In this document: positions 5,661-41,602 of the stretch, one piece after another
Layout: the number at the start of each line of letters is the position of its first letter
How positions within the stretch are numbered: the first letter of the stretch is position 1
Source: Crambe crambe
Taxonomy: Eukaryota; Porifera; Demospongiae; Poecilosclerida; Crambeidae
Direction: 5' to 3'
NCBI GenBank assembly: GCA_963924555.1
Contig: OZ004585.1
Span: forward strand, 7,394,556-7,458,555
DNA length: 64,000 nt
The notes under the pieces: model-generated
What the model saw: only the letters and a program-made list of their open reading frames with translations
Databases searched by the model: none
Told to the model about the DNA's origin: nothing
Translations under genes and position numbers: made by a program

Positions 5661-6281
5661 CTTGTGGGTCATTAATAGTGTCAGCAAGTCCCGTTTGACC
5701 AATCTTTTTGAGTGCTGCCTTTAAACTCTCCCAGCTGGGTTCACCACTCTGCTCAGAAACAAAGTCTTCCTTATTGAGCCATGCAGCAACCATGTCCCCA
5801 CGCAATGGCTCCATTTCCTTCAACTTGGGGTAAGAGAGTCCCAGTGCCCCACCCAAATTCATCAAATCATTTTTGTCCAAATTCTTCAGGAATTTAGTGA
5901 CTTCAAAGTGATCTTTCATTGTTAATAGTTTCACTATTGATCATAAGATATAAAAAGAAGAAGAAAAGAATGGATGCACCACATTCATGAGATCATTGGA
6001 AAATAGCGTAGCTAGCTAGCTAGCTACACAATTTCATCCACACTATACTCACCAGGTCCTGGATTGACTTCAATGTCACCAGCTAGTATCAGTAACAAGG
6101 GGATGACCACTTGACTATCATTATAATGGACACCATAGACTCCTCCTCTCTGTAGATACCTCCAACACTCTTCCAATGGTGGAATCAAGCCATGTATTAT
6201 GGAAGGAAGTTTCCAATCACTTTGGATAGGGTAATAGATGCAGGAGCAACGTAACTGATCAAATGTATCAGATCTCATCAT
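5661..6281 (-). CDS. Gene 1: 2A-like leader plus Death domain, 3' end missing
   Basis: Two exons are clear: 6281-6053 (start at the first ATG after an acceptor at 6283-6284) and 5933-5661. Exon 1 encodes 76 residues ending in a hydrophobic run (VVIPLLLILAG) followed directly by DIEVNPGP, the 2A ribosome-skipping consensus D(V/I)ExNPGP. The intron lies one base after the NPGP codons. Exon 2 encodes a Death domain of about 85 residues (DHFEVTKFL, LGLSYPKLKEME, AAWLNKED, PSWESLKAALKKIGQTGLAD). It ends in phase 1 at a good donor (5660-5659), as do the Death exons of genes 2-4. No downstream exon is found before the foldback element at 4995, so the 3' part was probably lost or displaced. Reading through the donor adds about 25 unrelated residues from the adjacent MITE. 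If skipping works, the leader and the Death domain would be separate chains. Expression is unknown. Confidence 0.72.
6054..6077 (-). other. 2A-like ribosome-skipping motif (gene 1)
   Basis: The codons read DIEVNPGP, preceded by LLLILAG, which fits the upstream preference of functional 2A sequences. Skipping would occur between the last G and P. The exon ends one base later, so the motif is exactly the 3' end of exon 1. Confidence 0.85.
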
Positions 6282-6282
6282 T

Positions 6283-6999: not shown

Positions 7000-7270
7000 T
7001 AAAAGTTGGACCAGAAGTCTGAGCAATCAGGGTACACTGAAAGAAGCCTCCTCTGATAGCTAAGGAAAGTGTGTTTAACTGTCAAAACGTACGTACATGA
7101 TTTGATAATGACACACTTGCAATTTGATAGCTAAGAGTGTCAAGAGATCAGCTAGCTATTCAAGTCCAAACTTGTTCCAACTGTACCTAGTAGAGCTGAT
7201 GAAGAATTTGATATCTATCAGCTAGCTAGTGTGACTCTAGAGACTAGATAATATTTATTAGCAGCTGTTA
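7000..7270 (-). promoter_or_regulatory. Duplicated upstream block, copy A
   Basis: This stretch matches 7640-7980 and 25200-25500 over several short runs: ggaccagaagtctgagcaat, tcaagtccaaactt, ctgatgaagaattt, and gactagataatatttattag. All copies lie upstream of minus-strand Death genes. They may be conserved promoter or 5' untranslated sequence, or simply duplicated flank. No open frame is shared. Confidence 0.45.
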
Positions 7271-7489: not shown

Positions 7490-7980
7490 ATTACTTTGAT
7501 ATCACTTTCGGAAAGTGTAGTGTCCATAGACTCCATCATAGAGATATTTTAAAGATAGACTTCAGATAGTTTTGCTGTTGTTATTGTTGTACTTAGTTAT
7601 TTTGCTTGTTTGTTTGTTGTTTTGATTCTAAAGTTCTGATTCTAAAGTTCTAAGATTCTAAAGCTAGACCAGATCCAGGTCTGAGCAATCATACCCACCA
7701 CATGTAGCTACTGAAAGCAACCTCCTCAAATATTTATAGCTTAGCTAGTTATTATAACTTACATTATAGTGATGGTCACACTTGAAATAGCTATAGCTAA
7801 TAGCTATATTCCTGTCAGTGTCAGTTCACTAACCAAGTCCAAACCTGATCTAACACTATATAGCTCTTGAAACTGACGAAGAATGTGTAGATGATGTCTA
7901 TTAGCTAGTCTGATAATAGATAAACAAACTGGAGTCATGTGACTAGACGATATTTATTAGTAGCTAGCTATGGGGACCCC
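7490..7980 (-). promoter_or_regulatory. Duplicated upstream block, copy B
   Basis: This is longer than copy A and closest to 25080-25500 upstream of gene 2. Shared strings include atagactc(c/t)atcata, tctgagcaat, gatgatgtctat(c/t)agctag, and gagtcatgtgactagacgat followed by atttattag. The last string is the best-conserved part and holds an inverted agtcatgtgact core. A second copy upstream of one gene suggests a lost duplicate gene or tandem duplication of the promoter. Confidence 0.5.
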
Positions 7981-16599: not shown

Positions 16600-17570
16600 T
16601 ACGTATTATAGAAGCAAATTTATTACAAAAGCATGCGCTGTGTCCTGTTGTGTAAATAATACACTTATCTTGACCGTCATGATTTGAGTACTTTATGATG
16701 GGAAGTATACACAGTCATAGCAATGTCAGTGACATCATATCATCTGATCAAAATATTTCCATGGCAATTTGATTAGTCTCATGCAGAACCAGATGTGTAC
16801 TTATATTAGTGTCTTGCCAGCTCATGAGACTAGCTGACAATCTGGTTTTCTCATGTGAGCTCATTCATGATATCTATAGAGACATCCAGAGAGTTATCAA
16901 CTCATTCAAGATGCATGGGTGCCCATATACATACATATAAGCAAGGTTTGGTCTAGGGACCAGCCTGTTATGCTAATTTTGCATAATAGGTAGCTACATC
17001 TTTATTGTAAGACTGAGGAAGTCAGAAGCTTCCTTACAATTGCACATAATGTATAAACGTAAAGGACCCAGATCAGGATTTCAAGATGTAGCCATTAATG
17101 ATAAATAGCATGACAAACTCAAACGGCATAAAATACAACTAAATTATTCAAAGCTCGATCCTATTTATACAAAACAAGATGCACAAACCAAAACCATCAT
17201 GATAATTGGGGGCATAATGTGGCTAAACTGGAATAATTAAAATCATAATAGTGCAAATTGTCATTTGCAGATAGGGTAAATGTAAATTATAGATGATGCT
17301 GGGGAGAGACAATACATATGAAGCATTTGCATTGGCAATGAATCCACTTGCAAGGAAGGCAGTATGTGAGGAAGACAGGAATAGAGGCAACACAAGTCTG
17401 ATGATGTTGAGTACACGTTAGTAACGTTACTTGAAAAAGCATACGTACAACATTTCAGATCCTTTTATCATAATGCTTGATCAATGATGTATTGCATGTT
17501 GCTTATGGTATAAAGTTGTTGGCTACAGTTTTGATAGACATTTTTAATTGGAACATTAATTTTGACATGA
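16600..17570 (-). pseudogene. Decayed copy of the gene 3 ectodomain
   Basis: The sequence aligns by eye with 26690-27300, the second ectodomain of gene 3. Examples are cagatagggtaaatgt, gatgatgctgg, ttgcattggcaatga, cacttgcaaggaaggcagt and gatccttttatcataatgc. Frames are broken throughout and segments are missing. A relic of exon 3 of the small helical gene (gacatccagagagttatcaa, plus strand) is embedded at 16850-16945, so both neighbours were copied together. Confidence 0.75.
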
Positions 17571-17867
17571 TAAAAAAATGATATCTGACGAATTGCTATA
17601 TAGCATTATAATTGAAGTTGCATAATTTAGTAGCAAGTATTACACCATTATTCCCTATCAGAAATTCAGACTGCCGCGCGTGCCGCCTATAGACTAATAC
17701 AAAAGGTGAAATTCCAGTTCCCCCACTTAGATCTAACAAAAGCTACTGTGAATGATTATCCAGCCTACTAGAGCCTACTACAATGTGCAGACCAAGTTTC
17801 AGGACCAGGGAGCTTACTGTTTCAGAAATACGGCAAGCAGGTAAATCACTGGATTCTTCTTCTTCTC

Positions 17868-17923
<56 letters not shown>

Positions 17924-18130
17924 TTAGACAACCATATCTCTCGAACCACTCAAGCTATACAGCTATGATTTCTGGATGAACTACGATCTTTTCTACCTGT
18001 TGATCCTCGAAAGAGTCGATGAAAAGGAGACACTACGGAGCACAGCACTCGACTAATTCAATTAGTGGAAGCCATCTTTTCTATAATACGCATGTGCATG
18101 TATTTTGATATCCAATTATTCGAAATTATA
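17571..18130. other. Gap with ATT microsatellite
   Basis: An (ATT)n tract of about 18 units lies at 17869-17922 and explains two small overlapping open frames of poly-Asn and poly-Leu. No gene is recognised. Confidence 0.6.
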
Positions 18131-18300
18131 ATACTGAGGTTTTCAGGTTGGTTGACACAAAATTTGCCAACAGTGCAGATTTAAATTCGTGCTCGCAAAA
18201 TTTAAGAGCATTGCATTTGTATGACAGTATTTTTGCTCGCTTGAATTTATCTTGCACATGCGCAAATTCTACTGGTCAACCAACCTGAAAACTTCAGTAT
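18131..18300. mobile_element. 170-bp MITE with TA target duplication
   Basis: Ends read ATACTGAGGTTTTCAGGTTG and the complement of ATACTGAAGTTTTCAGGTTG, extending to gttgac. TA flanks both sides (18129-18130, 18301-18302). The inverted repeat is about 27 bp with one mismatch. No coding capacity, so it is non-autonomous and probably mobilised by a Tc1/mariner-like transposase. Confidence 0.85.
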
Positions 18301-18597
18301 TACTCAGCTGTCTAGCTAGCTAGCTAACTAGCTCTAGATAATTAATGATGATAGACTACTATCAACTCGGAGATTTAGATTTACCAATCCATCTACCGGT
18401 AGACTCTATTTCAGCATCTTCGACCTCCAAGTATAGCTCAACAATAACACAACACCTTGACTCATTGATAACGATTGGGCTGGTATGCTGGAGAACTATT
18501 GGAGAACTATTCTTCTTTCATCTGTCCCTGCATACACATAGAAGAATGAACTCTATACATAGCTAAAACCATAAAAGAGAGGAAAAAAGACCAGGAA

Positions 18598-18919
18598 CAA
18601 GTAAGGGAAAAATCATTTCGTGAAATGAAAAAAGATGTAGGGATGACCACTGCTCAAAAAAGTAAGGAAACAAGAAGGATGGAAAATGGGATCAATCTTT
18701 GTTCTGTAAGTATATCCAGCCAACAATCCCTACATATAGCTACGTCGGGTAGCTTCAGATTATAGTGCAATAATGTACATTTATGTAGGGATTGTTGGCT
18801 GGATATGCGTACAGAACAAAGATTGATCCCATTTCCATCCTTCTTGTTTCCTTACTTTTTTGAGCAGTGGTCATCCCTACATCTTTTTTCATTTCACGAA
18901 ATGATTTTTCCCTTACTTG
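18598..18919. repeat. Long inverted repeat, 138-bp arms, 44-bp loop
   Basis: Left arm 18598-18737 and right arm 18782-18919 are nearly identical in complement (caagtaagggaaaaatcatt versus aatgatttttcccttacttg, gatgtagggatgaccactgc versus its complement). The small number of differences indicates recent inversion-duplication. Fragments occur near 20450-20495 and 28750-28860. Confidence 0.85.
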
Positions 18920-19485
18920 TATCAACAATGCTATTATACAACTTGTGAGTGCTATCCAAGAAAATATTCCTTCCGTTATTCGCCTGGAACTTCTTTCAAA
19001 TCTAAAATTCACTGAGAGAAAGTAAGTCTTTGGATCATAAGTAGGCAAGAATGCATACATCACAAGTATGGGAAATGTAACAAAATGGTATAGAAATCAT
19101 TTTTGTGACATTATATCCTTTAGCTAATAAGTCCCATGAAATTGTGGAAATCCTGATCATCTGCAGATACATTGAATGTAATAGATGCTGGAGGGAGGCA
19201 GTAGCTATAAAGTAGCTAATTATATTGGCAATGAGTCCACTTGCAAGGAATGCAGTGAAGTCACTGTATGTGTGGAAGACTGGAATTGAGAGTCAAGTGA
19301 GGAAGAATTGGAACTAAAAAAAAAAAAAGAAAAAAGCAACCAGTGATCAACTTACAGCATAATTATGTCTGGTCAATGATATATTGCATATTATCAGTCG
19401 TACTCAACCATCCAACATTGTATATGCTATCAGGTAGATTGATTGGAATTTCTGAACAAGAGTCATGATAAAATTCTGATGGTGA
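18920..19485 (-). pseudogene. Second decayed copy of the receptor ectodomain
   Basis: The minus strand shows the ectodomain end and following membrane segment (FLSVNFRFERSSRRITEG, comparable with gene 3 FIQMNFKVERSARYLAQ). Further up it keeps gatgctggagggaggcagta and attggcaatgagtccacttg. Frames are interrupted. It lies downstream of gene 2's stop at 19747, so gene 2 probably once had a gene 3-like ectodomain and lost it by a stop after the first membrane segment. Confidence 0.7.
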
Positions 19486-19746: not shown

Positions 19747-22700
19747 TCACAGTAATGATGGAATCAAGACCAATAGTATTATAATTAAAGATATAAACAT
19801 AAGAATGCACGACAGTATTATGACTAGAATACAATGTTTTCTGATGATTGAAATACAACCCTTGCAGCATTTTCTGGTATTTGAAAAACAATCCTTGCAG
19901 CAGTTTGAAAAACAATCCTTGCAGCATTTTCTGGTATTTGGAAAACAATCCTTGTAGCATTTTCTGGTATCATTATCAGGTTCTAATAATTGGATATCAT
20001 CTTGATTTTTGGATGATGAATCTGGTGATGGAAGATCTTGACCTGTTTGTGGAGGATCCTGATTTCCATAAGCTGGAGGAAAATCTGGATCTTTTACTCT
20101 TTGTGGTAAATCATTGGACACTGTTTCATTGTAAAGTAGAGACTGTGAATCTAGATCTTCAGATGATAAATCTAGTAGTTGATATGCTGAAGGTGGAATT
20201 CCTTCCTTGGTATCTTTCAAAAGATAGCATAATCATTTAATAAAATTTTGACCATTTGAATCGTATTGATGCAACTCAACGTAGAGTCAATGCATAGGTG
20301 GATCTTCATGTAGCTAACTATATCAGTCACATAGCTGCTATGTATAATAGTCCAACAATTGGTACTATGATACATGCACATACCATACACATTCATACAT
20401 ACGCCTAGAGCATATAATTCCATACTAGATAAATAAATAAAGGGCAATAAATGAAGATGTAGGGATGACTAGTTAACTGGTCGAAAAAAGGAACAAGAGC
20501 TGAATGGATGAGATTATGCAAGGACGTTAGTCAGCTATCTTTTTTCTTCGTTTATTAATTATGAAATCCGTACATGCTGTCCTTACAGCCATAGCTAATA
20601 GCTTACCTTAAGAGCTGACTTTTGTTCTGATCTCAGAAGAAAAGAAGGAACGTTTGTTATGGATGCACACTCAACTGTACTGAGTGAACTAGAGAACATT
20701 AACTGGGTGTGTCTTTGCATACCTTTTTTGTTCCTAGTAACCCCTATTTATATTCATAACAAGTAGCGATTCCTTCATGCCTGCACCTATGCATGTGCAT
20801 TCCCTTGCCAAGAAAAACCCATAGGGGCACAGTGCCATGACCCAGCTAGAGCTGTAAGACAGCTTGAAAGTTCTGTCTTTTATGCTGGCTACTCTCTGAA
20901 AAGCTTGTTGGGTTTGAAATGTAGAATGCGGTCAATATAAACCTGCCATGTGGTCAATGAATAACATTAACCAGAAAAATAATAAATAAAATTTTGACTG
21001 GTCTATATGAAACAAGAATTTGATTGAACTACCATTGACACCATTAGCTTAACCATAGATAAAATTTTTTATGGCAATTTAAGTTGATAGCTATAATGCT
21101 CTCACCATTCAGTAGCTGTGCTCCATTATGGTGGGCATCACCATGCATTCGTGGCAATTGTAGACTATCTTCACAAGTACTTATACACCATGATCCTAGT
21201 GAACGCTCATGTTGAACTGTACATACATAAAAAATTTTCTGACCATTAATTTCATAATAATTATAGTTGACAGATCTTAATTTACTTTAAGAAGTAGCCA
21301 AGTTTTAGCTGAGACTCACTCATATTGACATCATCTGGAATGAGAGGCTCAGGATCAGATGAAGAAGTACCCTCATGAGATTGTGGGTAGATTGCTGTTA
21401 TACTTTCTTTTACTGGGAGAAAACGATAAGAATAACAGTCAAGTAGCTGCACTCCAATGTTCAGCAGTTTTCTTTTTTGCTTTTGACTTAATGGAAAAAC
21501 TTCATGTTCAAGAGGATATTTAAACTTGAACTCATAACAACCATCATCTTCAGCATAGAAATTCAATCTCAAATCCAATATACTTGATAAGTCATGCTCA
21601 AAGGTTTTCATTGAAATAATTAGATGATCAACTCTAACAAATAAAGAAGAGTAATCTCCTATAACAGCACCAAAGTATGGTGGTGCTGGTGATAGAGGAT
21701 CTCTTTCAAAAGCAAGATGAAACTCGTAAGTTTCACAATCCAGTGATTGTACTCCAATTTCAAGCAGTTTTCTTTCTTGTTTATAACTCAGTGGAAACAC
21801 TTTTGGTCCACATTCACGAGGATATTTGAATTCATACAGACCATTCCTTTCCTCATGAAAGTTAAGAATAGTTAAACCTAATAACAAGTTCTTCAAGAGA
21901 CTCTCCATCGAACTTAAAGCTATAGGATGATTAAGTCTCACAAATAAGGAGGAGTAAGCATCTATAGTGCTGGCATAGTATGATGGAGGTAGTGATTGTG
22001 ATGAATCAAGTGATGAGGCAGTTGATGGCAGTGGTGATGAAGGTAGTTGTTGCAGTTGTGCTAATGATGGTAATTTTCCAATTGATGGCAAAATAATATC
22101 TGTGAATTTGAATATAATTAGTGAATCAATGATGAGAAAACCCTATAGTGATTACTATGTATCGTAAAATTCTATAAAATGGAGATGTATAACACATGCA
22201 TCTGGAATTTTGATTAAAATCAATACATATATAGCTACCTTTTGACTTGGAGTAAAATAATTTTAATACTCCAATTCCTTTTAGTTGATCTATTTTTTTC
22301 TCATTCAGGGGAAATATTTCATTTAACTCATGAAAAGTGTAGAAAATGAGAGTGATGGATCCAGGTTCCCATCCATGTAGGTATACTGGTATATCAAACA
22401 TTTCTGATAACTCTGATTCTAACTCATAAACTTCGTCTGCTGGAACATCGAAAACTTTATCTGTTTTAATGTAGATCTGTTTTTTATTTTGCATAGAGGG
22501 ACCTTTTGTTTCTATAGGTACTTCACAAAGTCTGCGCTTACAATAAACTTTAAATCTTGAATTGTATTTGGTCAATCTCTCTTTGTCATTGCTTGTGCCA
22601 AAGTCACTAATGATACTCTTCAAAATTTCATAACTGAAGAAGGAACAATGCTTAAATGTCTTTGAAAGTAACTCATCAATCTTGTAATCAGATTCATTTA

Positions 22701-25079: not shown

Positions 25080-25500
25080 CGATAACATGCATTATTGTCT
25101 ATGTTTTCTGGTATAGACTCTATCATAGCTATAGTTATAGCTATAAAAATGGAGTTTAGCTAGCTAGAGTTTTTTGTTGTTATTTTTGCTTTGGCTGGAG
25201 TCAAAGATTCTAAAGCTGGACCAGAGGTCTGAGCAATGCACAGCTAGCTATAACTGAAAGCAACTTTGAAGTGATAGCTAATACGTACTATATCTAGCTA
25301 TTGTAACTTACATTATAGTGATGACCACACTCTTATCCCCCCCAATATTTGTAAGTATTCAAGTCTGAACTTGCTAACTCGTAGCTCTCAAACTGATGAA
25401 GAATTTATAGATGATGTCTATCAGCTAGTCTAATAGCTGGACTAAGAGATAAACAAACAGGAGTCATGTGACTAGACGATATTTATTAGCAGCTATGAAT
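25080..25500 (-). promoter_or_regulatory. Upstream block of gene 2 (copy C)
   Basis: It begins about 50 bp upstream of the first coding exon of gene 2 and matches the blocks at 7490-7980 and 7000-7270. The best-conserved string is ggagtcatgtgactagacga followed by tatttattag, with aagagataaacaaac just before it. A weaker version (gagataaacaaagaagagtc then atttgtgact) lies upstream of gene 3 near 32212. This is a candidate shared promoter. Confidence 0.5.
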
Positions 25501-26595: not shown

Positions 26596-29500
26596 CTAGC
26601 TAATTATTTTTTTGCTAATACAGTACTTCTTTATAAGACAACAGGCTACTATAAAAAATAATATAAATATAAATTGTGGTGTTATTAATGCAAAAGCAAG
26701 CTGTGCCCTGTAGCGATCTGACTGTTCACTTGTGTAGTTTAGAGTGACAAATGTATCAGACAATTCCAAGGACGCTAGAATGCACATATCTTGACCACCA
26801 GGAGGGTTAGCAATTGAGCAGCTTGATGATGGAAAAGTACACACAGTAGTAGCAATGTCAGTGATATCATATTCTCTGATATTTCCTTGCATGGTGTAGT
26901 CGATAACTGATGATTGGAAGCTCTGTAGTCCCACAAAATAGTGCAAATTATCCTTTGCAGATAGGGTAAATGTTATAGATGATGCTGGAGGGAGGCAATA
27001 TGAAGCATTTGCATTGGCAATGAGTCCACTTGCAAGGAAGGCAGTGAAGTCACTGTATGTGAGGAAGACAGGAATAGAGGCAACACAAGAATTAATTGAT
27101 AACATGTAACTTGAAAATATATACTGCACTTTAGATCCTTCTATCATATAGGCTTGATCAATAATGTATTGCACATCGTTTGTGGCATTAAGTTGTTTGG
27201 TATAGTTCTGGTTTGAACGTGTAATTGAAATTTCTGAACATGTGTCCTGATAAATAGTGACATTCAATGGATTAGTGCTGTTGAAATTAGTTTTAATGAC
27301 ATAATCGTTCACAGTAGTAACAGATACAACATCACCATTCCCTATCAGGACTTCTCTTGGTAAAGAGGGAAGAGTTAGAATAAAGGGTAGACCAATGGAT
27401 GCTGGAACTCCCAACGTTATGAATGCAGAGATGAATAAGACAATACTAATGATAACAGTGCGTGAACTGCAAATGTTTTTATCAAATTTTACCTTTGATA
27501 GGCAAAATAAACCTCCAATGATAGCTAGTATGAAAGAGATTGTGAGTGCTGTCGAACCAGATATTAGTTGTGCTAAATATCTAGCACTTCTCTCTACTTT
27601 AAAATTCATTTGAATGAAGGTATTGGATCTTTGTAGAGATGCTAGAATGCATGTATTCTGACTGTCTAGTGATATGGAGCAGCTTGGAGTGGGAAAAGTA
27701 CAAGTGATAGCAGTCAGTTCAGTGATGTTGTAATTAATGACATCATTGATCAAAGTGTAGTTAACAGCTGCTGATTGGAATCCTTTTAACCCCACGAAAT
27801 AGTGCAAATTCTGATCCTCTGCTGACAAAGTAAATGTTATAGATGATGCTGGAGGGAGGCAGTATGAAGCATTTGCATTGGCAATGAATCCACTTGCAAG
27901 GAAGGCAGTGAAGTCACTGTAATCGAGGAAGACAGGAATGGAAGCTACACAAGGGGTGGATGAATCAAGTGAAAAACTTGAGAAAGTATATTGCACTGTT
28001 GATCCTTTTATAATATATTTCTGATCAATAACAGAGTGCATATCATTGGTGACATCCAGTTGTCTTGTAGAATTATTTCGGAAATTATCTGTTGAAGTTG
28101 TTGAACATGGTTCTTGATAGAGAGTAACATTGAATGAGTCTCCACTGGCATCGATATTAAAGTTGACTTTGCTGACAGCATCACTATTCAGAGTTACAGC
28201 TAGCACTACATCATTGTTCCCTATCAGGACTTCACCAATTGGTGGTATTAAAGGAGGCAATGTTGAAAGCAAGCCAAAACATAACACAAAGAATAATGTA
28301 CTAATGATTACAAATGATAATAATATTATCACCGTAATAGGTTTATTTTTACAACTGGTTGCTCCTTCTCGTTGTGTATCTGTAATTTGAGGGAACATAG
28401 TATTATAATATAGCTATTAAGTATTCTATAGTTACAAGATAACGTTTGCTTCTTTAAACCTGATTCCACAAGTCGGCCACTGCACCTATGATCGTAGCTA
28501 TGATAGCTATATAATGTGTAAGAATCTGAGGTCGGAAGTGGAAGTGATCAAATATCAATTTGTGATTGTTCACATTTTTCTTTTGGAATCACTTTGAAAA
28601 GTCCTTTTTGCCCCCTATAGTTGTATAGACATTGTACCTATTATCTAAATAGCTATATTCAACTTCACTATAATAATATTAATAGAGGTTTTTTTGAATA
28701 AATCAACAAATGTTACGAAAAAACAAAATGCATGGTAAACAAAACAGTGCCTGTGAAATGGAAAAAAAAAAAGATATGCTCAAAAAAGTAAGCAAACAAA
28801 GGAAGGAAATGGGTCAATCTTGTTCTGTATATCCAGCCAATGTACATACTTAGCTATTACCGCACTATATCTGAAGTTACTATAGCTTACGAACAAGTGG
28901 AGCAAGGAACTGGCTCTAAGCTACGTATACATTCCTGGCGTATATATATGTATGTGTCATGCAATTGTAGTGCCCTGTACTGTGTGTGCATAATGCATAT
29001 CTCCATAAGTGAATTGTAGGAACTAGCTGGGCTTATCTTTGTGGTGAGCATTACAGCTTTCTATGTATGTAGCTGCCTGCCACTTCAACAACAACAATTT
29101 TAAACATAGAGCCATTAGAACCGATTAGCTCTAATAATACTTGCTCACGTCACTCGCTCGCTGTCAAAATTAATGTTGCACATTGCCCTAGTAGATAGTG
29201 CAACTAACCGTAATCAGATATACGTAACTATTCATTCAAACACTAGCTAGCTAGCATGAGCAGCAAACCTGGAATAGTTGTATTCGGAGTGGATTGTTCT
29301 TTTGATTGTCCTTCATTAGAATAGTCCCCTGAGACTGGACTAGAACTGGCCCTGAAGTCTGTCTGTGGTACAGTATGTACTGATGGTTGCTCTGGTGATG
29401 GTGACATCAGGGGATGTGTTACAGGAGGTGATGATGATACTGGCAATTCAGTTTCTATGCCTATACCTAGTGTACGTAAGTGTATAATGTTTGTAATAAC

Positions 29501-31495
29501 TACTTGAGTTAGTAGTGATAGAACATGTACCCACAGGTGGTGTATTTCAGAAGGGTGCAGGATGCACAGAGGGTGTGTTTTAACTTGCTTGCATTTTCAT
29601 AGCACATAGCTAACTATTACTCACACATGAGCAGTATCGGATATTAATAATAACAAGCAACATGTTTTGCTGATCCCTCTAAAGATTCTGGGAAGTAATA
29701 TATTATCACAGGTATTATGCATACACTCTTTCCATGCAGTCTTGCATGGTTTAGTACCTTACTAGCTACAAAAGAGAGTGAATTAGCATACAATTGGGTA
29801 GCTAGAAGCTAGAACATTGTTGCAAGCTTGATACTCACACATATTGATGGTATCTGAAGTTAATTCATCATTATATAGCTGCAAGTCCAATGCTGGAAAA
29901 TAACCTTGTCCTCTTCCATGTACAGTGTGCTGATCATATACGTAAGTCTCACACTTAAGATACTTCACACCGATGTCAGAGAGTTGCTCTTTTTGTTCAT
30001 TACTCAATGGAAATACTTCACTGAGTGTGCGGACATGTTTGAACTTGAACATCAAGTCACCATTCTCTTTTTCCTCAAAGAATTGTAAATGTATATCAAC
30101 TATATGTGACAATTTCCACTCAAAATCCTCCATTGAACTGATTGGATTCTTTACTTTGACCAATAGAGTGGTGGACTCGTCTGCAGTCAAACTTGAGTAG
30201 GAAGGTGGTGGTAACAGTAAACCATCAGATTCTGGTTATGGTGACGACTACATATTAAGACCTCCAATAATATTTATGAGTCACGTACCTTCCTGTGACT
30301 GTGAGCCGGCCACCATGCCTTTGACACTTGCACTTGGTGGTGTTTCCAGCTTCTCTGTATAAAGGATGGCTAAATTAACTAGCTATGTAGTTACCACATG
30401 CATGGAATGATGTGGTGGGGCAGGGAGAAAATAAAGCAAGTAATTATTATAGCTAATTTAGCAAATAAGACTCCATATTATTGTTCCAGCTCTTATAGAG
30501 CACAATTCAAAACGGAGTTATTGGTATCATTAAAGCTCTTAATCTGGAGAAATTTATATCCCATTTCGTTTCTGAGTTATACTAGATTGAATTTTACATC
30601 TCACATACATTAATTTTATATGTAGCTTGTAAACTTTACAAGGTTTTAATGTTTTGCACAATAAAACCCCTTGTACTATCCCAATTATGTCTGACTTGAT
30701 CACCCCCATGTGATATGATGCAGACCAGACTTCCTTGTGTCTTAATGAACATTACCCTAATTGTCTCAATGAATCACTATAGCTACCCTAGACTTGTGAA
30801 AGTGCATGGCTAGCTAATTACAGTAAAGCACATTATGCAATTATCATAGAATGAATGGAATGAATTTCCTTTAGCTGCCATGAATAATGTTAGCTATACA
30901 GTAACATGTTATACGTACATGTAGGTAATATAGCTAGCTACTAATAGATACCTTGTGAAATTTTGTCTGCAAGTCCTGTCTGACCAATACTTTTGAGTGC
31001 TGTCCTTAAACTCTCCCAGCTGGGTTCACCACTCTGCCTGGAGACGTTGTCTTCCTTATTTAGCCATGCAGCAACCACGTCGCCACATAATAACTTCATT
31101 CTCTTCAATTTTGGATAAGAGAGTCCCAATGCCTCACCCAATGTGATCAAATCCTCTTCATTAATATTTACAAGCAATTCAGTGATTTTGAAATGATCAT
31201 CCATTGTTAACAATAATACTATAAAAAAGGTAACGATGATGAAACAATGTACAGCTGTATATTTGTGTAGCTAGCTATAACCATTGATCTAACTACTATA
31301 CTCACCAGGTCCTGGATTGACTTCAATATCACCAGCCAGTATCATTAACAAGGGGATGACCACTTGATTATCACTATAATGGACACCATAGACTTCTCCT
31401 CTTTGCCAATACTCATCTAGTGGTGTGATTGAGCCATTTTTGTGACCACATTGGAGGGTGTAGATACAGGAGCAACAAGACATTTTATTATTCAT
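26596..31495 (-). CDS. Gene 3: 2A-like leader, Death domain, module, and four-pass double-ectodomain receptor
   Basis: Six exons: 31495-31306, 31218-30952, 30354-30289, 30231-29839, 29466-29269 and 28379-26596. All introns are phase 1 and the 2898 bp close on a stop, giving 965 residues. Order: leader ending in hydrophobic VVIPLLMILAG and DIEVNPGP (about 1-63); Death domain (64-150); linker; PPPSYSS and one copy of the ~90-aa module (about 190-270; VFPLSNEQKEQLSDIGVKYL); Pro/Ser-rich spacer; membrane helix (386-410); ectodomain 1; two helices (about 636-663, 671-707); ectodomain 2; last helix (about 926-953). The ectodomains share CxxxxLSDFTAF-like strings (YSDFTAFLASG, ANASYCLPPASSITFTLSA), several Cys and many N-glycosylation sites. 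With a cytoplasmic Death domain both ectodomains face outside. If 2A skipping works, the chain would start at Pro just before Death. The first ATG after the acceptor (31497-31498) is taken as start. I do not recognise the ectodomain family. Confidence 0.8.
28735..29220. repeat. Interspersed repeats in the last intron of gene 3 and its flank
   Basis: 28750-28860 is a decayed partial copy of the inverted repeat arm at 18620-18780. 28950-29215 resembles 33830-34430 and, inverted, 9481-9655: tatgtagctgcctgccactt, cttgctcac(g)tcactcgctcg, and ctgtcaaaattaatgttgca followed by cattgccctagt. The family's full length and class are unclear. Exon 29466-29269 lies just upstream and exon 28379-26596 downstream, so these sit within an intron. 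Confidence 0.6.
31307..31330 (-). other. 2A-like ribosome-skipping motif (gene 3)
   Basis: The codons read DIEVNPGP after LLMILAG. As in gene 1, the splice donor follows one base after the motif. Exon 1 is conserved between the two genes mainly near the 3' end (GVYGVHYNDSQVVIPLL in gene 1, EVYGVHYSDNQVVIPLL in gene 3). Confidence 0.87.
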
Positions 31496-31496
31496 T

Positions 31497-32766
31497 CTGA
31501 AAAAATCAAACAAACGCAGTTATGATTTTCTAACTACAATAATTATTACCATAAAAAAGCTGGACTATAGAGCTAGCTACCACAGTAGAGCTTGGATGGT
31601 TAGCTAGCTAAATAGCTACTAAACCAGAACTTTCTATTTTAGGCTAAATATTGCTTTCCAACCCCCTTGGGGAGAGGGCCTGAGGGCAGTATACTATTTA
31701 TACAGCTTCTACATGACATAGCTAGCTAGTCATATCAGGTATGTATTGTGTTGTATTTAGTCTAAATTTCTATAGCTGCATGTTGCTAGATGATTCTAAA
31801 AGGGTGGGGCATGATGTGTCTTGGTATTGTAGTTTAGACGGCTCTCATTCAGACAGGACTATAGCTAAAGACAGACTAGCAAAACAGGTAACAGGTTGCA
31901 CTGAGAATGCTCAGACTGTAACTCTACACTTATATGATCACATGAACAAATTATCTAAAGCCAAGTCAGACCGAATGATAATTAACTTACATTATGACTT
32001 TCGAGATCACAACCTGCTAGACTGTTCTGGTCTCTGTATCCTATACACTTGTGCTTGTCCTATACACTTGTGGCTGTATCTTAATAATACCTTGTCAGAA
32101 CCATAATTTTGTAGTTAGCAATAATAGCTAGCTGTACTTTTTTTAGCTTTAGCTATTCATGCACTAATTTTCAGAACAGCAAATTGGTAGCTAGCTTGCT
32201 ATATACCTGAGAGATAAACAAAGAAGAGTCATTTGTGACTACTGTAGGGCACATTTGACAGTGAATGAGCAAGTAGCTGATAGCTAGGTTCCAACTGATT
32301 TGTGCTTCAACTGCTTAGATTCTGTGCTTCAATTCTTTGTTATCGAGTTGTGTAAGTGGCAGGCAGATGCATGCATAGAAACCTGTAATGCTTACCAAAA
32401 TAGAATCCACCTAACGCCTAGTATGTAGAAATTACGCAAGAGTTGAAGAAGGAGAACCCTGACATCAATCACATCATCAGGCTACACCTAATCATATGTC
32501 CACCCTCAGACTAACGCAGTAATGCTGTTTTAGTATTATTATTTTTTCTTTTGATGCCTACGGGTTTACACGTATATGAATTTGAACTACCAGACCTGTC
32601 AATAAAAGATAGTAGCTAATGTGATAGTGGCTACAAATTAAATGTTATAAAAGTTAATTTCATGTGACCTCCAGAGTGCTCCTACGCTGGCATAGAATCC
32701 ACGATCTTTAAATGTAAGTGACTTAGCACGCATTTCATGAGTCTAAATTATACATCAAACACAACA
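31497..32766. other. Intergenic region between genes 3 and 4
   Basis: An acceptor (ttttttcag) directly precedes the gene 3 start, so a 5' untranslated exon is likely upstream. A 121-codon open frame on the plus strand (31741-32106) has no recognised feature. Near 32212-32245 is a weak copy of the upstream block seen at 25450. Near 32670-32710 a minus-strand segment could be an alternative last exon of gene 4 (IVDSMPA then stop). Confidence 0.45.
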
Positions 32767-35700
32767 TCAAATTTGCTTCACAGATACTGTGAATTTTAAT
32801 AATACCGTGCGAGCTTCTTCATCAGCAGTGTAGTGGACTTTTGTTGAGAGGTACTTGTATATACTCTTGTTGAATAGACCCTTGGAATAGTCAAGTATAT
32901 CATGATTACACTAAAATAGAATTTCACTATGATGAGATGATTATTATTATGTATGGTCACAACAAACCTCATCCTTTATACTTAGAATGGCTTCTCTTTC
33001 AATCAGCAGTTTTACAGTGTCCTGATCCTTATTTTTCACAGCAAAGAAGATAGCAGTCCATTTACAATACTGAAATGACAGTGAAATGATCAATATCCAA
33101 TCTTCTCTTTTACTTCCTAACTTCATACCCTTTCAGCTATGATGTTGACATTAGCATTAGCTTCTACTATGAGGTATCTTGTCATCATAGTGTGTCTTTG
33201 CATAACAGCTAGCATCAAAGGAGTCACTCCCCACTACACACATGATCATAAACTATAATTACAGTTTAATATCCCTGCTTCCACACTCACTTCATCTTGT
33301 ACATCAACCTCAGCTCTGGCTCTGACCAGAGTCTCCATAGCTTCTCTTCCAAGGCCTTTATAGCTAGTGATATGAGCAGCTGTTAATCCTCCCTATTAAA
33401 GAAAAATTCCTTAGTTAATGTTGTATGGGTATGCCCCATGCAGGAGTAGTGTTTTGTGTTTCATGTGTGATTCACCAGTCAGATTGACTCGATCAGAGGT
33501 AGAGGCTGAAATGCTAGATAATTATATTGGTCAGCTTTTTACTATCAACAGTTAGAGCTGGTTCACTTCAGTGTCTCTCAATATAGATCAATGGATCAAG
33601 CTGTCACTTGAGCCATTAATTATTTATCATACCCTCTTCTTTTTGTTGACATCGGCACCTGCTGCAACCAGCACTTGAATGATATCTGTCCTCTTCTTTC
33701 TACAAGCAGTGGTTAGAGCAGTCCAGGAGTTCTGTAAGTGAACATTTCATTTCAAAAAATTAGTCTAACAAAAAATGTACATGACTGTTTGTGCAATTGA
33801 CATAATTATTGCAGCGAGCGAGCTGACTCTCAGGTCATGCATGACTCATTGAAATTTTAAATATTACACTCCAAAATGCCTCGGGCGTGTCGTGCAATAG
33901 TAGCGCCCTGCGCGTACATTTATGCGCATGTTCCAATTGTAATTGCTTGATTGATTTCTACATCGCTTTGTTTATAGCGTGGTGGATAGCTAGGCTTATC
34001 TAAGTGGATTGTAGGCACTAGACATATCTAAGTGCTTTGTGGTAAGTATTTAGCTTTCTATACATGCAGCTGCCTGCCACTCCACTTACATAACTCAACA
34101 GCAAGGCATAAATCTCAGCATCTCTACAGCCTTTTGGGCAGCAGGCACAAGAGGCTTATCTAAGCGACTTGTATGCACTAGGCTTATCTAAGTGCTTTGA
34201 GGTAAGCATGTATGCAGCTGCCTGCCACCATTACATGACTCTTAGCAATATCAAGCACTGAAGCCTATCAGCTACTTTAATTGCTCACTTGCTCACTGTC
34301 AAATGCTGCACATTGCTACAGATACTCAACAGCAAATGAAAATCGTTGAAGAATACTTGCTTGCTCGCTCGCTGTCAACTGAATGTTGAACATTGCCCTA
34401 GTTATATATACATACGTAGCTAGCAACACCCAAAGTGTGTTAAGTTGACACTCTGGTGTTACCTTAAATTGAGAAATTTTTGTTAGATAATAATTCATGT
34501 TTACAAGTTTCATTTTCATTGTTACAGCTTACTTGTACTATGTTATACAAGGTAATTAATTTTAGTTGCTGAACATGACCACGAACGTCGAAAAATTCCC
34601 ATTTATGGTGATTATTCCATACCTTGCTTTCATGGTCAATTTTTATGGATTCAGTTTTACAGAATATCTTCACTAACTCAGTATGGCCATCTTGACTGGC
34701 CTGCATCAAAGGTGTCCATCCATTCTGTATTACATATTATAGAGTAATTATAATCTATATAACAGGAGATATACTCTTTTAGCTTTAATTAAATTATCCA
34801 TAGCTATACTTGATGAAACTGCATACATTTTTCAATAATTGGACCTGAATTTCAACCTCAAGGCTAATAATGAAGTCAAGGGAGCTCAAGTATATGAGCC
34901 AAATTTCTACATAGTTGGAACTAGTCTATACCTGAGCCTTAAGGTTCACATCTGCTCCTGCACTCAGCAATAACTCAGCAACTTTTCGGCGGTTTTCCTC
35001 TGCCTTAGGCAATGTAAATTTTTTACCTCTGGACTGTGATGCCCACATCAAAGCAGTCCAGCCTCGCTGCATAATTTTAAAAAATATAAGCTATTAGGTA
35101 CAGAGAAAAATTAATTCAGTGCAATAAGTACCGTCTTGTTTTGCCTGTTGATTTCTGTTTTATATTTTGGATTCAGAAGTACACCAACCACTTCATGATA
35201 TCCTTGTCGGCTAGCCAACATTAGAGCAGAGAAGCCATTCTAAATGAGAGAAATGGTAACAATGATTTAGATGATAATTATAGCATAATAATTATATAGC
35301 TATTACTGTTGCATCTTTATTGGGATCTGCTCCATTCCTTAAAAGGACCTCCACAGTCTTGACATGTCCTCTGTGACTTGCCCACATAAGAGGTGTCCAC
35401 CGAAGCTATGACATAATAAGTACTCATAAAATACAGCTACGTATATTAATTTTAATATAATTACCGGATCAAATTCAACAGTATTAGGATCAGCACCATC
35501 TTTCAATAACTTTATTACTTTTGCATGTCTTCCAGCTTTAGCAGCTGTCATCTAGAGGAGTTATATATATTATATCATACATAACTAGAAAATTAATTCA
35601 GACTATTGCTGGATTTGTAGCTGATATAAAAACCTCCTTGGTGCATGAGACTGATGCTGAAAAAATAGGATTGCTGATTTAAGAGGTTGATAAAAATTAC

Positions 35701-38700
35701 TGTTGGATATACAAAGATTGTCTTTATTTTGTCCCATTGCAACATAGCTTCCTACACATCCAGCTACCAGGCTGCATGCCACTAGCTTTAATGATTATCT
35801 TTGCTATAAGGAGTTGAAGAAGTATAGATAAAATTAATTGGCCCTTATTAGAAAATCATTCGATGGAATACTTTATTTGCTCACTCACTCATTCTTAAAT
35901 TTAATGTCGCACGCTGCAATAATAGCTGATGAATATAGCTATGTATCACTTACAAGTCTGGCTCCTTTGGACTTGAACATAAATAATATTCTTTTACGCC
36001 AACTCTCTCTCCTCTATAAAATGGAGAAAAAAGTACAGATTTCTGATTAGGGTGGGGCTGGAATAAATTGAAAAGTCCAGTGAACCTGGCCAATTAATGG
36101 GCAACCATCAAAAACAACACATCATGATGATACCTCAGTACTCTGATCGTTTTCATTGTCTGAGTCTTCTTCAATGCCAAGATATTTGACCATATCCCAC
36201 TCCTCCTTCTCTTTAGCAATGTCTACAGGTCTAATTCCATCCTATAAACATAATAGTTTTATCATAATTATATGCACCATTTTTTCTTTCTTACTCTATC
36301 TGTGATATCCCTTGATTCAGGAGAAGCATCAATCAAACACTTTACAATTTCCATGTTTCCATATTCAGCAGCAGCATGCAGAGCTGTACGTCCTCTTTCC
36401 TGAAAAACACAATGATCTACACAGTGAAACCTGTCTAATCAGACCACAATCTAATGAGACCACCTCCATAGTCAGCACCTACGTATTCCAGTTACAGTGA
36501 AACCTCTCTAATTGCCACCTGTCTAATCAGACCCTGTAATGAAACCACCTCTCTATTAAGACCACTCCACCATGTCCCAACAACACCTATTCTAGCTACA
36601 GTGAGACCACCCCTCTATTAAGGATCATTCAGCTATTTTGAGTCCCCCAATAAGACTACCTCCCACTTAATCTTGCCCCAAAAGTTGTACCTCAAACTTA
36701 CATCTTGTGCTTCAACGTAATCATTTGCTAGTTCCTGCTTTTGGAGGAGAGCATTAACAATCTCAGTGTTACCATTCTTGACAGCAAGAATTAATGCTGT
36801 CTCACCAACATCATTACTGATATTTATCTTCACTCTGTTATTGTTCAAGAAAAGATTGACAATTGGGAAATCATTACCCCTTATAGCAATCAATAGAGGA
36901 CACAGGCCACAACTCTGGAGGAAATATATATGAAGAAAAATGACATCAAAATTCAGTACTAGTGCTATGGGCTATAGCCTTATTTTTACTGTTCATTTTA
37001 GAGTTTTTATGCCTTATAATTACTATTATTATTATCACCTTTTCTTTTATATTAGGGTCAGCTCCCAACTGTAGTAGCTCTTCAACAGCACAAAATTGTC
37101 CTTTTTTTGTGGCAACTATCAAAGCTGTACATCCAGTCTACGATCATCGTGTTTATCAGATTCTTTGATATAATTATTTTAGGTAGTGCATGGTATGTAC
37201 CTCATCTTTGTCATCCATAATTATATCATTGGCTCCAAATTCATTCATGATACTGATGACTTTTTGATGTCCATGCTCAGCAGCTTTAAACAGTCCGTTT
37301 CTTAGAGTCTTTGCATAAGTAAAATTAGTAATTGTTAGACACTGAGACAACCCGAAGGCCCTGGCCTAACCGAAAATGAGGATGCTATGTACGTAGCTAC
37401 CAGGGTTTCTAAATACCATATAGGGGTTGAGAGAACCTAGCCAAGCTATACCTAGCTATACCATTTCCAAACAATAAATAAATGTTGACAAACTGCATGT
37501 GTTACTTATGAACATGCGATAATTATAATGGTTTGAGGGCGAGAGCACTAGCCCTATGCCCTGAGAATAAAGACTATACTTAGCTAACATGCCCTCAGAG
37601 ATAATGCCTTCTAACTGATCAATCATGCATGCAGATTGCTCTATTCAGCACAGCAACATGGATGAGGTAATAGTTATTATAATTTCATCAGAAGTAATTA
37701 GCTAGCCACATAGTAATGATCGAGACTCAGAAGTGCATAGGGCATTAATTGCTTCATCCGTGCCTTGAAATTGGCTGCACTAAGAAATTACTTTGGACAT
37801 TAATCTAGTTGGCCATCCAGCTAAAGGTAGGGGTGGATATTCAGCAGATGCGAAATACATACAAGTATAATTATGTTAACCTCAGGTTCAATGTCACCAT
37901 TCATGAACTGTAATAGCTCTTTAATGGTTTCATGATTTCCTTTTTCACAAGCATCTTCAAACTGCATGGATAGGTAAGAAAGTAGTAGCTATATAGATAA
38001 TGACAGAATTATACTCTCACCTCTTTCTGAATGTTTGCCATCTGAAACACAATTCCTCCTCCTAAAAATGATGCAGAAAAAATTGGCTGCTAGCTAGGAT
38101 ATTGAATAGCAAAGAGGAGAATATGTCAGTAAATCTATATTAGGTAGTGTAGTATAAGTAGCTATAATTATACTGTATAGCTATTGCTCACCATCTGTCA
38201 CAGTTTCAGAATCTTTGTCATTCACTACAGATGCAGCAATTGATTTTTCATAAAAGACTTTAGTTTTACTATACATTTTCAATACACCAATAGTTGAAAG
38301 GTTTTGTTTCTGCTCATCACTTAGTGAAAATGTATCATCAAATTCACGGAGAGATATATAAACAAAGTTGATACATCCATCTTCCAATTTACAAAGACGT
38401 ACTTCAGTTTCAAGAACTTTTGAAAGCAATTTATTCTGCCGATCAATATTTGCAACAGAAGTGAAGAATCCATCTGGAGGATCAAACTTGACATTGAAAT
38501 AGTTATGAGCTTTGTCATGAATCCCTTTGGAGAAACTGTCAACTGGTACTTCACAAAGTCTACGTTTGCAGTATTCTTTGAAGTCTGAAACATATGTGTC
38601 TAAATCTTGTAGCAAGTCTTTGCATAATCCTTTGATGATAATGCTCAGAATTTTATGATCAAAAAAAGACCAATAGTCAGCAATCTTTTCCCACATATTT

Positions 38701-41602
38701 TCAGCATCAATTCCACTATCCAGACTTTCCAAAACTTTTCTAATACTGCAGCTCTTTAACACTGCTCTGAGATTGGACACACTTACAGAGCTTTGTTTGC
38801 ATGAGGATATGGTTTTACCCACCAAGACTGCGAATTTTTCCATTATTTCCTCACTCTCCAGAAGTAATTGCTCCTTCAAATCTTTCATTTGTTCTTCTGA
38901 CATGCCCTCCAATTTAATAAGATGTGGAAACTTCTCCTTGACACCTGAAGATAAGGAGAAAAGGAGAATATGAAACACATCTAGATCTCTAACTTCTCAA
39001 GAGAGCTATCATACATACTTGAACTACCACTGATATTGATATAGCTAGTATATGAGGCTATAGACAGAAGTTCAAAATAGGAGAGGCAATTTGATTTCTG
39101 AACATAAGGCTTAATTGAGAAAGATATGCAAGACTGCACTTAGGCAACAGAGCACAGTACTATAATTAAGGCAGGGCCTGGGCAAGCCCCACACTAGCCA
39201 AAAATTTGTCTCTCATAATAGCACATGCATTGACATTAACAACACGGTGACTATTTTCCCATAATAGCTAGCTGTAGCTAAGTTTACTATGAATCAAATG
39301 TAGAAGGAGACAGCATGTGGCAGAAGAAAGAAAAATATGTGATTATCATAGCCCCAATGTTGCCCCTTGACAATTGCAGCTATTATGTCTATGACTACAA
39401 TTAGTATTCCACTTATACGTACCTTCTTCTTTTAAGCTACCTCCACTTGAAGGAGGTGAGGCAACGTTTGGGGAGACCTGGGTCTCCACACTGTCCACAA
39501 AAGCACTGGCTGTAGTTGTTATAACCAGGGGTGAAGGTAATGAAACTGTGTGGAAAAAAATAAATGAAGGAGTTGACTTTGCCCCTCTCTTTAATTGTAA
39601 GGTCAAATCCCCCACTTTATGTCAAAAATTTGAGAGGATATAAGGCCTCACTATTTCCCGGAACAGAACGGACCGGAATGGATGGTTCTGGGGTACTATT
39701 CTATGGAAAGGACCCCTTAGGAACAGACTCATCCTGAGGATATCAAGCAAAAGTAGCCAGCAAAGGAAGCTGAGAAGTTTATAACTTGACTAGCTGTTAA
39801 ATACGTAGGCTCCTCTTCAAAAATTATTTCACCTCACTGAGTGCCCCGCCCCTTTCACCTTTGACCTTGCTAACAGCATTTGATATTCTGTATGTATATA
39901 TATGACTAGATGGCACAGCATCAATGATGAATGCATGGAAAGGACTCCTCCTGCCAGCTATTTCAAGACAATTATACATGAGGGCTTATTGAGTCTTCAT
40001 CTGGTCGATCATCTCCATTATTGTTGTTGCAATTTAAATACACAATGATCGAATGTACGGTCTTCATCATAAAAAAGTTTCCGTTGCGTTGCCGTACAAC
40101 GTCCGTAGAACGCTCAAGCGTTGTAAAAAAAACCGTGTGCGAACGCTTTATGAACGCAAGCAGGCGTTTGCGTTGAACGGCCCAATTAAACGTACGTAGT
40201 TGGGTTCGAAATTACTAAACGTTTTTACGGTATGAAAGCACGCAGCAATTCCAGCAAAAACGTTCATCAGCAGCAGATCGACAGCGAGATGACCTGCAGG
40301 CAGTCTCCGAGGAAGGCCTTGAGCTCTACGTAGCTAGATATCGACTTGTGCATGCTAGTGGTGGTACAATTTCTTCTGCCTTCATCGTGCCTGTAAAGTT
40401 TCATCTCACTGATAATAGAACATCATGGTGGTGTTATACTATAGCTAGCTGTAAGTGCAGAACTAGCTAGCTAGCTAGCTCTAGTGCCAACATAAGCTAG
40501 TCAGCTTAGAGAGATAGCTAGTCAGCCTAGAGAGATAGCTACGCATAGTTCTATAAGCTTTTAGGCTTAGGGTTACGTTTTGTAATAACGTTTTTTCACC
40601 TACGTACGTACATGGCTATACTTCTTACCGTTTCTTCGTGAACGTTGAACAGGCGTGCAACGCTTGATGTTAAACGGTGTAGAAAATTAAACGCACGGGG
40701 GACTGTGTGAAAACGGCAACGGTCAAGGCGTGCAACGCCAGTTCTACGTGGACGGAACGGGAACTTTTTTTTGCAGCCTACCGTACTGTATGGTTCTATT
40801 GTATTTTGATAATTATTCAGAAACTGATTGGTTCTGTCATTATTCTGTAGACTATACATATAGCTACCTTTATGTATTGAAATTCAATAACTTTGAACAT
40901 TAGCTAATGTTTTGTTGTTGCAAATTTATTTTTAAGCTTACTAGCTATATAGCTTACTTTAGGTAGCTAGCTAGCTATAGTTAGATACAAAGACTAAGAA
41001 ATAATAATTATAATCGTATACGTATAAAGAGACAATTGCTAGCGAGTCAGCTAGCTATTCTATTAGCTATAAACTTAGAAGCTACCAGCACGGTAGAAGG
41101 AGGCTGCCAACTACCTTTACTCTTAAGTAGAGTGCACTCTAAAGGTCCATTCTGTAGAATAGTAGCCCCGTTCTGGGAAGTTCTGTCCTTTTTATGCACA
41201 TGGGCACTTAAGGGGTCCATTCCGTAGAATAGTACCCCGGAACCATCCGTTACAGTCTGTTCCGTTCTGACCCAGATATACTCACAAAGTCAGTAGCTAT
41301 TTTCCTGTCAGTATAGCTAAGCTAATTGATAATCATACCTGGTGTGATTTTGTTGGCAAGACCTGTCTGACCAATCACTTGAAGTGCTTCCTTTAAACTC
41401 TTCCAGCTGGGCTCACCACTCACCTCAGTCACATGGTCTTCCTTATTGAGCCATGCAGCGACCATGTCCTCACACAATGGCTCCATATTCCTTAACTTGG
41501 GGTAGGAGAGTCCCAATGCCCCACCCAATTTCTTCAAGTCATTTTTATCCAAATTTCCCAGAAATGTAGTGACTTTAAAGTGGTCTTTCATCGTTATAAG
41601 TG
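32767..41602 (-). CDS. Gene 4: Death-domain ankyrin-repeat protein, first exon not found
   Basis: Exons: Death 41602-41339; linker 39545-39423; helical domain plus module 38944-38192; adapter 38061-38021; then 37961-37881, 37308-37201, 37137-37039, 36914-36702, 36399-36295, 36241-36134, 35551-35465, 35405-35307, 35239-35132, 35066-34932, 34724-34623, 33731-33633, 33392-33291, 33233-33129, 33069-32968 and 32910-32767 (stop). The first introns are phase 1. The 41-bp adapter exon changes phase 1 to phase 0, and every ankyrin-type exon after it is phase 0, mostly 99-108 bp, one repeat each (for example RGWTALMWASQ, NGFSALMLASRQGYHEVV, LRWTPLMWASHRGHVKTVEVLL). The domain exon has YCKRRLCEVP and the module signature SLSDEQKQNLSTIGVLKMY. 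The Death exon starts in phase 1, so a coding first exon must lie upstream; no 2A motif is seen there. A donor inside the last exon (near 32808) could give another C-terminus. Probably cytosolic; partners unknown. Confidence 0.75.
33830..34430. repeat. Interspersed repeat in a large gene 4 intron
   Basis: It shares gcagctgcctgccac, tatctaagtgctttg(a/t)ggtaag (twice) and gctcgctcgctgtcaa with 28950-29215 and other sites. Internal repetition suggests at least two overlapping insertions. It enlarges the intron between exons 34724-34623 and 33731-33633. Confidence 0.6.
36415..36665. repeat. Decayed acagtgaaacct repeat in gene 4 intron
   Basis: Repeated strings acagtgaaacctgtctaatc, acagtgaaacctctctaatt and acagtgagaccacccctcta lie in tandem. 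The cagtgaaacctctctaat form resembles pogo/Tigger-type terminal repeats (recalled). A related stretch lies near 59364-59520. Confidence 0.5.
39655..41268. mobile_element. 1.6-kb element with long inverted ends, containing a second AACG-rich element
   Basis: About 60 bp at 39657-39720 return inverted at 41207-41268 (ggggtactattctatggaaa versus the complement of ccgtagaatagtacccc). Inside, 40070-40770 has its own inverted ends (aaaaaagtttccgttgcgtt versus the complement of acggaacgggaactttttt) and many aacg/cgtt words unlike its surroundings. No transposase frame is seen. It fills the intron between the Death and linker exons of gene 4. Confidence 0.6.

Follow-up and report, generated by a model that had tools for sequence, protein, structure and literature searches.

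Phase-1 Death exons and discordant exon histories in a Death-domain gene family of the sponge Crambe crambe

What kind of gene family could give four neighboring genes the same type of Death exon and such different C-terminal ends? We addressed this question for a gene cluster of the demosponge Crambe crambe, contained in a 64,000-nucleotide stretch (hereafter the window) of contig OZ004585.1 (assembly GCA_963924555.1, positions 7,394,556 to 7,458,555 of the forward strand); positions below count from the first letter of the window. The original prediction for this locus had proposed a shuffled family of Death-domain proteins with differing outputs. We consider it likely that these genes belong to a lineage-specific expansion of Death–TRADD-N adaptors and receptors, in which a phase-1 front end has been recombined onto varied downstream parts. 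This reading draws on exon borders, a predicted Death fold, family size, exon order, discordant exon histories, and one mosaic gene with a breakpoint inside an intron, all taken from genomic sequence. The four Death exons are as follows:

5661..5933, minus strand: gene 1 Death exon, phase 1 at both ends; AlphaFold2 Death fold, predicted local distance difference test (pLDDT) score 92
23833..24108, minus strand: gene 2 Death exon, phase 1 at both ends
30952..31218, minus strand: gene 3 Death exon, phase 1 at both ends
41339..41602, minus strand: gene 4 Death exon, phase 1 at both ends

Death exon borders, fold, and copy number

All four exons are bounded by AG and GT exactly where the original prediction had placed them, in phase 1 at both ends, and their proposed paralogy was borne out, with proteins 69–76% identical to that of exon 1. 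The same borders recur across the genome: in 30/30 retrieved Death loci (including the four from the window), a phase-1 AG lies within −1 to 8 nt of the aligned exon start, and a phase-1 GT follows downstream. AlphaFold predicts a six-helix Death fold for this exon type. The Pfam Death profile (PF00531) matched none of the four, and none of its listed matches (150 at most) overlapped the 150 listed for the gene-1-type Death exon. This silence had prompted a reading in which no Death domain is present, which is countered by the predicted fold and by family-level matches to PF00531 (17 of 33 members at E ≤ 1, best 6.4e-4).

The gene 1 Death exon has at least 150 matches in the 143-Mb genome, and a helical domain with the motif YCKRRLCEVP (hereafter YCKRR), encoded further downstream in some of these genes, has at least 149. 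All such counts are lower bounds, the best 150 of 326 candidates having been scored for the Death exon, the best 150 of 215 for YCKRR, 103 of 232 for NACHT, and the best 150 of 965 in another genome search. Among the matches listed, 32 of the 150 Death exons are followed on the same strand by a YCKRR exon within 4 kb; for 2 it lies upstream, and for none on the opposite strand. NACHT matches lie within 2 kb downstream of the same Death exon type in 8 of the 150 cases listed. Upstream, these exons had no NACHT match within 2 kb and a single one within 10 kb, and the opposite strand gave none. A 2A exon, a Death exon, and NACHT follow one another in this order at C16:2088 kb. The original statement that no NACHT or kinase domain is present therefore stands for the window, given the open reading frames (ORFs) scanned and the NACHT matches listed, and does not extend to the exon type, which precedes NACHT elsewhere. 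Nor do the window genes qualify as NLRs, since no NACHT was found among the 103 matches listed or in the scanned ORFs (leucine-rich repeats were not searched separately).

Some Death loci show further local arrangements. Loci L010 and L011 (C15:1568632 and 1569263), 631 bases apart on one strand, encode identical Death exon proteins and represent a tandem duplication of the Death exon itself. Dense NACHT clusters occur at C21:1.29–1.64 Mb and C9:7.06–7.53 Mb, with 2A leaders inside the first and just past the second.

Discordant histories of Death and YCKRR exons

The central evidence for exchange comes from 15 genes whose Death and YCKRR exons both lay in retrieved loci; 17 of the 31 listed Death–YCKRR genes were left out of this comparison, and one gene, C9_346, comes from outside that list. 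At the DNA level, C9_346 is 91% identical to C6_4361 in the YCKRR exon and 57% in the Death exon, whereas its Death exon is 83% identical to that of C9_3551 and its YCKRR exon 41%. Likewise, gene 4 of the window and C20_1572 share 88% identity in YCKRR and 79% in Death, and the Death exon of gene 4 is closest to that of C8_6309 (85%), a pair whose YCKRR exons are 51% identical. When clades supported by one exon were imposed on the other, 6/8 DNA tests and 5/8 protein tests rejected them; the DNA tests that did not were C6_4361 with C9_346 for Death (p = 0.20) and gene 2 with C8_7379 for YCKRR (p = 0.38). Since the groups were chosen after the identities had been seen, these p-values are exploratory.

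The history of C9_346 could be followed across the locus. It aligns with C9_3551 at 82% over locus bases 1–774 and not beyond, and with C6_4361 from base 778 on, and this switch of relative was repeated in 100-base steps against shuffled controls. Because the Death match ends at base 518 and the YCKRR match starts at base 1506, the breakpoint falls in the intron after the Death exon. Together with the 15-gene discordance and the range of ankyrin, double-ectodomain, and NACHT outputs, this breakpoint supports the shuffled family first proposed.

We weighed two other explanations of these patterns. In the first, which we regard as unlikely, gene conversion homogenizes the Death exon among genes, and no exon moves between architectures. 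Between C8_7468 and C15_1568, a block of 91% identity comprises the Death exon and little flanking sequence (about 10 bases upstream and 40 downstream), while the other aligned blocks are 70–85% identical; this tract-like block fits conversion or a single-exon transfer. The C9_346 mosaic is instead crossover-like, one relative matching through the Death exon into the intron and the other covering the YCKRR side, and conversion also has to contend with NACHT and YCKRR genes bearing the same Death exon type.

The second explanation, whole-gene tandem or segmental duplication with downstream exons diverging faster and no exon exchange, would account for the many copies clustered on the same contigs, for the higher average similarity of Death exons (63% vs 54%), and for the correlation between the Death and YCKRR identity matrices (Mantel r = 0.39, p = 0.03). 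However, differences in rate cannot yield the C6_4361/C9_346 and C9_346/C9_3551 identities at once, nor do they account for a sudden change of relative within an intron. We thus consider duplication alone improbable and already largely refuted; given the Mantel correlation, exchange is overlaid on duplication.

Gene architectures and their outputs

The other features of the four genes are listed here:

6053..6282, minus strand: gene 1 2A leader exon, ATG at 6281, ending in GDIEVNPGP/G with a GT donor, phase 1
7931..7958, minus strand: 28-base element ahead of gene 1, with an identical copy at 25460–25487 upstream of gene 2
25000..25033, minus strand: gene 2 first coding exon of 11 codons, MSLRSKDKRRP/G
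22976..23636, minus strand: gene 2, two Ser/Thr-rich linker exons (23636–23451; 23086–22976), modeled by eye
22239..22919, minus strand: gene 2 exon encoding the helical YCKRRLCEVP domain (22917–22513) and TRADD-N-type module 1
21320..22099, minus strand: gene 2 exon with two further 90-aa modules (21983–21711; 21683–21417), profile match for the second only
19747..20213, minus strand: gene 2 last exon (after exon 21216–21106), Pro-rich and Cys-rich, with one hydrophobic segment and a stop
17245..19470, minus strand: decayed double-ectodomain remnants with stops (19470–18923; 17670–17245), downstream of gene 2
31306..31495, minus strand: gene 3 2A leader exon (coding part), ending in GDIEVNPGP/G, phase 1
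29839..30231, minus strand: gene 3 TRADD-N-type module exon, linker exon 30354–30289 before and Ser-rich exon 29466–29269 after
26596..28379, minus strand: gene 3 last exon (593 aa), with two ectodomains set between a total of four hydrophobic segments, and 12 N-glycosylation sequons
38192..38944, minus strand: gene 4 exon with the YCKRRLCEVP domain and a TRADD-N-type module, linker exon 39545–39423 before
32638..38061, minus strand: gene 4 ankyrin-repeat exons, joined in phase 0; Pfam scan of one of them

In the models of genes 2, 3, and 4, whose splice borders were picked by eye to hold frame, the proposed exon joins rest on sequence. Genes 2 and 3 close in frame as claimed, over 8 exons and 881 aa and over 6 exons and 965 aa, respectively, with all internal joins in phase 1; the gene 3 donor ahead of the last exon is weak (GTTTGC). 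From its Death exon, gene 4 runs in frame over 22 exons to a stop (1034 aa), the first three exons joining onward in phase 1 and the ankyrin exons in phase 0. Upstream, the predicted join to either a 2A exon or an 11-codon exon applies to three genes, with 2A leaders before Death exons 1 and 3 and the 11-codon exon before exon 2. For gene 4, a 2A pattern search and inspection of the gene model found neither, and a phase-1-compatible candidate first exon (43750–43702) resembles neither. Downstream, linkers and modules follow in genes 2, 3, and 4 as proposed, with YCKRR in genes 2 and 4 (the YCKRR profile had no match in gene 3), and no such exons were recognized in gene 1. For that gene, the Death, YCKRR, and TRADD-N profiles gave no further match in the downstream part of the window, and visual inspection of ORFs over the following 4 kb revealed no exon of these types, although exons of other types may exist. 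Gene 1 shows only a front end of 2A exon and Death exon. A hAT-type transposase ORF with a hAT dimerization domain (1965–2942, plus strand; PF05699, 3.4e-11) occurs in the downstream region that would be expected to hold the missing exons of gene 1.

The fronts of genes 1 and 2 are alike in two further stretches. The 28-base element was matched twice, against none expected from 100 shuffles. The donor of the gene 2 11-codon exon aligns without gaps with the end of the gene 1 2A exon (21/26 bases identical), a likeness equaled in 2/2000 mononucleotide shuffles. As part of it is splice consensus, a decayed 2A exon is only suggested.

Of the predicted outputs, the double ectodomain of gene 3 and the ankyrin repeats of gene 4 held up, while the "membrane tail" of gene 2 overlooked a truncation and the decayed remnants behind it. 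Hydrophobic segments were taken from a 19-residue hydropathy scan, no topology predictor being used. For the gene 3-type ectodomain, 18 matches were found, every one on the same contig; those at C8:7327 kb and C8:6316 kb are preceded on their strand, at a distance of 5–6 kb, by 2A, Death, and YCKRR exons. At C8:6309 kb, a Pro-rich tail and a double ectodomain share a single 727-aa frame. The gene 2 tail is similar, but its stop falls after the first hydrophobic segment (as counted in a relative); because of this early stop and the degraded ectodomain pieces with stops downstream, it is best read as a truncated version of the gene 3 kind of end.

The 90-aa module is very probably TRADD-N, a published family. 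Its predicted fold is two-layered and RRM-like, with four strands and two helices as in TRADD-N, and at the position of the TRADD-N β2–β3 turn, 39/39 first modules carry G, followed by Ser or Cys in 38/39 (S 14, C 24, N 1). By eye, the later gene 2 modules have GL and GC at this turn and the gene 3 module GD. PF20694 matches 6/39 modules at E ≤ 10 (best 1.1e-4; the gene 2 exon is not among them) and one place in the genome. A search of the sponge's own genome with PF13820 (NCOA6_TRADD-N) gave no match, its controls being silent too. The modules are related to one another, as originally stated: a profile of module 1 matches gene 2 module 3 (29 bits) and the gene 3 module (32 bits), and modules 2 and 3 cross-match between two paralogues at 67% DNA identity. 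A module match stands behind the YCKRR domain in 30/30 retrieved YCKRR loci. Sequence searches of the Protein Data Bank (PDB) with A1, A2, A3, A5, and A6 returned no relevant match, and the YCKRR helical domain had no convincing PDB match (best Z 6.4, possibly a mere common helix arrangement); since the module fills the list of structure matches, this domain may still have a known fold. At loci L001–L004 (C16), partial YCKRR matches (34–38 bits) come after Death exons of the Pfam type, and the helical domain may thus be common to a second Death family.

Elsewhere in the window, a 285-aa ORF (59865–60722, plus strand) has a Bles03 match in one stretch (PF08939, 8e-6) and a second copy by eye. 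One relative, P0037, combines YCKRR, the module, and a weak Bles03 match (0.0063) in one protein, so that Bles03-like domains may be a further output of the family. The plus strand of the window gave no Death, YCKRR, or module match at E ≤ 1. It does hold a single 1261-aa ORF (44606–48391) with C-terminal hydrophobic stretches by eye and one Chlam_PMP repeat match (2.8e-5). The minus strand also carries transposon-like ORFs (12348–10376: HTH_psq, DDE_1 endonuclease, PHD finger) and several long ORFs at 50268–58557, three of which were scanned and had no Pfam match at E ≤ 0.01.

2A leaders, known systems, and meaning

Genes 1 and 3 carry the 2A/StopGo motif D(V/I)ExNPGP, in leaders of 76 and 63 codons, respectively. 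Followed by G and a GTRAG donor, this motif has 76 genomic matches (reversed control, 0), 19 of them within 400 bases upstream of this Death exon type; with no donor required, there are 208 matches (control, 0). A 2A motif lies upstream in 15 of the 30 retrieved Death loci, 14 with the exact donor. The leader ends align mutually and evolve under constraint; the 2A set behind this estimate includes L020, whose leader is apparently frameshifted, and the Death ratio of non-synonymous to synonymous substitution rates (dN/dS) covers 8 of 14 loci (equal length only). Similar leaders, by eye, stand ahead of other helical exons at L070 and L072; at L070, a later exon matches PF00531 at 3.9e-6 and the first helical exon has no match. 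It is very improbable that the 2A exons are ORF remnants of non-LTR retrotransposons, foreign to these genes: 2A-like sequences are known from such elements (in the available text of PMC4981915) and 132 of the 208 motif copies, not inspected individually, lack the exact donor, but 76 end exactly at a phase-1 donor, 19 of these close upstream of a Death exon, and the leader ends are alignable and constrained.

Because the module is very probably TRADD-N, the Crambe crambe family is of the same kind as the NCOA6-clade TRADD-N expansion reported from Amphimedon queenslandica (357 proteins; Kaur et al. 2021, PMC8195603, as far as its available text goes). The pattern described there, of one to three Death-like domains, TRADD-N, and a variable C-terminus (mostly ankyrin or SH3-LRR) in hundreds of genes with many unique architectures, recurs here as a Death unit, TRADD-N, and a variable C-terminus in very many copies. 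Unlike in Amphimedon, genes 2 and 4 have the YCKRR helical domain between Death and TRADD-N, and exchange is seen in the DNA. The 2A leader, exon phase, and double ectodomain are not named for Amphimedon in the available part of that paper, whose main text contains neither "exon" nor "NPGP". Relative to classical TRADD (PMC8195603, available text), TRADD-N and a Death domain are shared, while here the order is reversed, there are one to three modules, and the C-termini differ. The DED–TRADD-N receptors of Crassostrea virginica (PMC8195603) likewise combine a membrane receptor with a Death-superfamily domain and TRADD-N, yet have an N-terminal Cys-rich ectodomain and one transmembrane segment, where the sponge proteins have two C-terminal ectodomains and four hydrophobic segments.

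For the leader, the closest parallel lies in sea urchin NLRs, of which 85/241 (~35%) in S. purpuratus have 2A-like sequences and for which dual-targeted products of a 2A leader have been shown (Roulston et al. 2016, PMC4981915, available text). According to the same text, sea urchin proteins in which DEATH is the N-terminal domain carry 2A at the N-terminus or close to it, a feature common to both animals, and the 2A–Death–NACHT order at C16:2088 kb resembles these NLRs; the window genes differ in having no NACHT and a leader that is a separate phase-1 exon with a putative recoding or targeting role. Another sponge, Dysidea avara, has 128 DEATH genes and 25 DEATH-NACHT-LRR genes (PMC12909245, in whose available text "TRADD" does not occur); "sponge" and "Porifera" do not occur in PMC4981915 or PMC12846837. 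We found no report of 2A leaders in sponge Death genes in the literature searched, which did not cover a 2025 survey of eukaryotic 2A, so that prior mention is possible. Within that literature, three features are apparently unpublished: a 2A leader exon with a phase-1 end directly behind NPGP, the occurrence of the window's Death exon type ahead of NACHT exons, and double-ectodomain outputs with four hydrophobic segments.

We propose that this lineage-specific expansion of Death–TRADD-N immune or apoptosis adaptors and receptors would work through a front end of phase-1 cassettes, often a 2A leader exon and then one Death exon. Recombination in flanking introns would move this front end onto YCKRR and TRADD-N, ankyrin, or double-ectodomain parts with four hydrophobic segments, and elsewhere onto NACHT, an exchange that would work because the front-half borders are in phase 1. 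The C-terminal part would act as sensor, TRADD-N may serve as a lock on the inactive state or as a bridge, as Kaur et al. propose, and the Death domain would recruit partners through homotypic assembly as output. By analogy with the sea urchin NLR leader, the 2A leader may yield two products per gene, leader-fused and leader-free, with different targeting. A bolder extension, which we hold as possible and a little short of probable, is that one mobile front end (a skippable 2A exon and a Death exon, in phase 1) serves TRADD-N adaptors, NACHT proteins, and double-ectodomain proteins alike, making recoding and signaling exon-modular and heritable. The double-ectodomain class also has the 2A exon but showed no Death exon. 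At C8:6614 kb, a double-ectodomain exon that starts at a phase-1 acceptor comes after a 2A exon, and neither inspection by eye (ORFs ≥45 aa) nor the Death matches listed placed a Death exon between the two.

These observations add another animal, and genes that are not NLRs, to the range of N-terminal 2A described from sea urchin NLRs, which suggests great age for the arrangement or its repeated recruitment. Phase-compatible exons traded through introns could provide a concrete route for receptor diversification without adaptive immunity, by which a few reusable parts may give rise to many sensors in an animal that has no antibodies.

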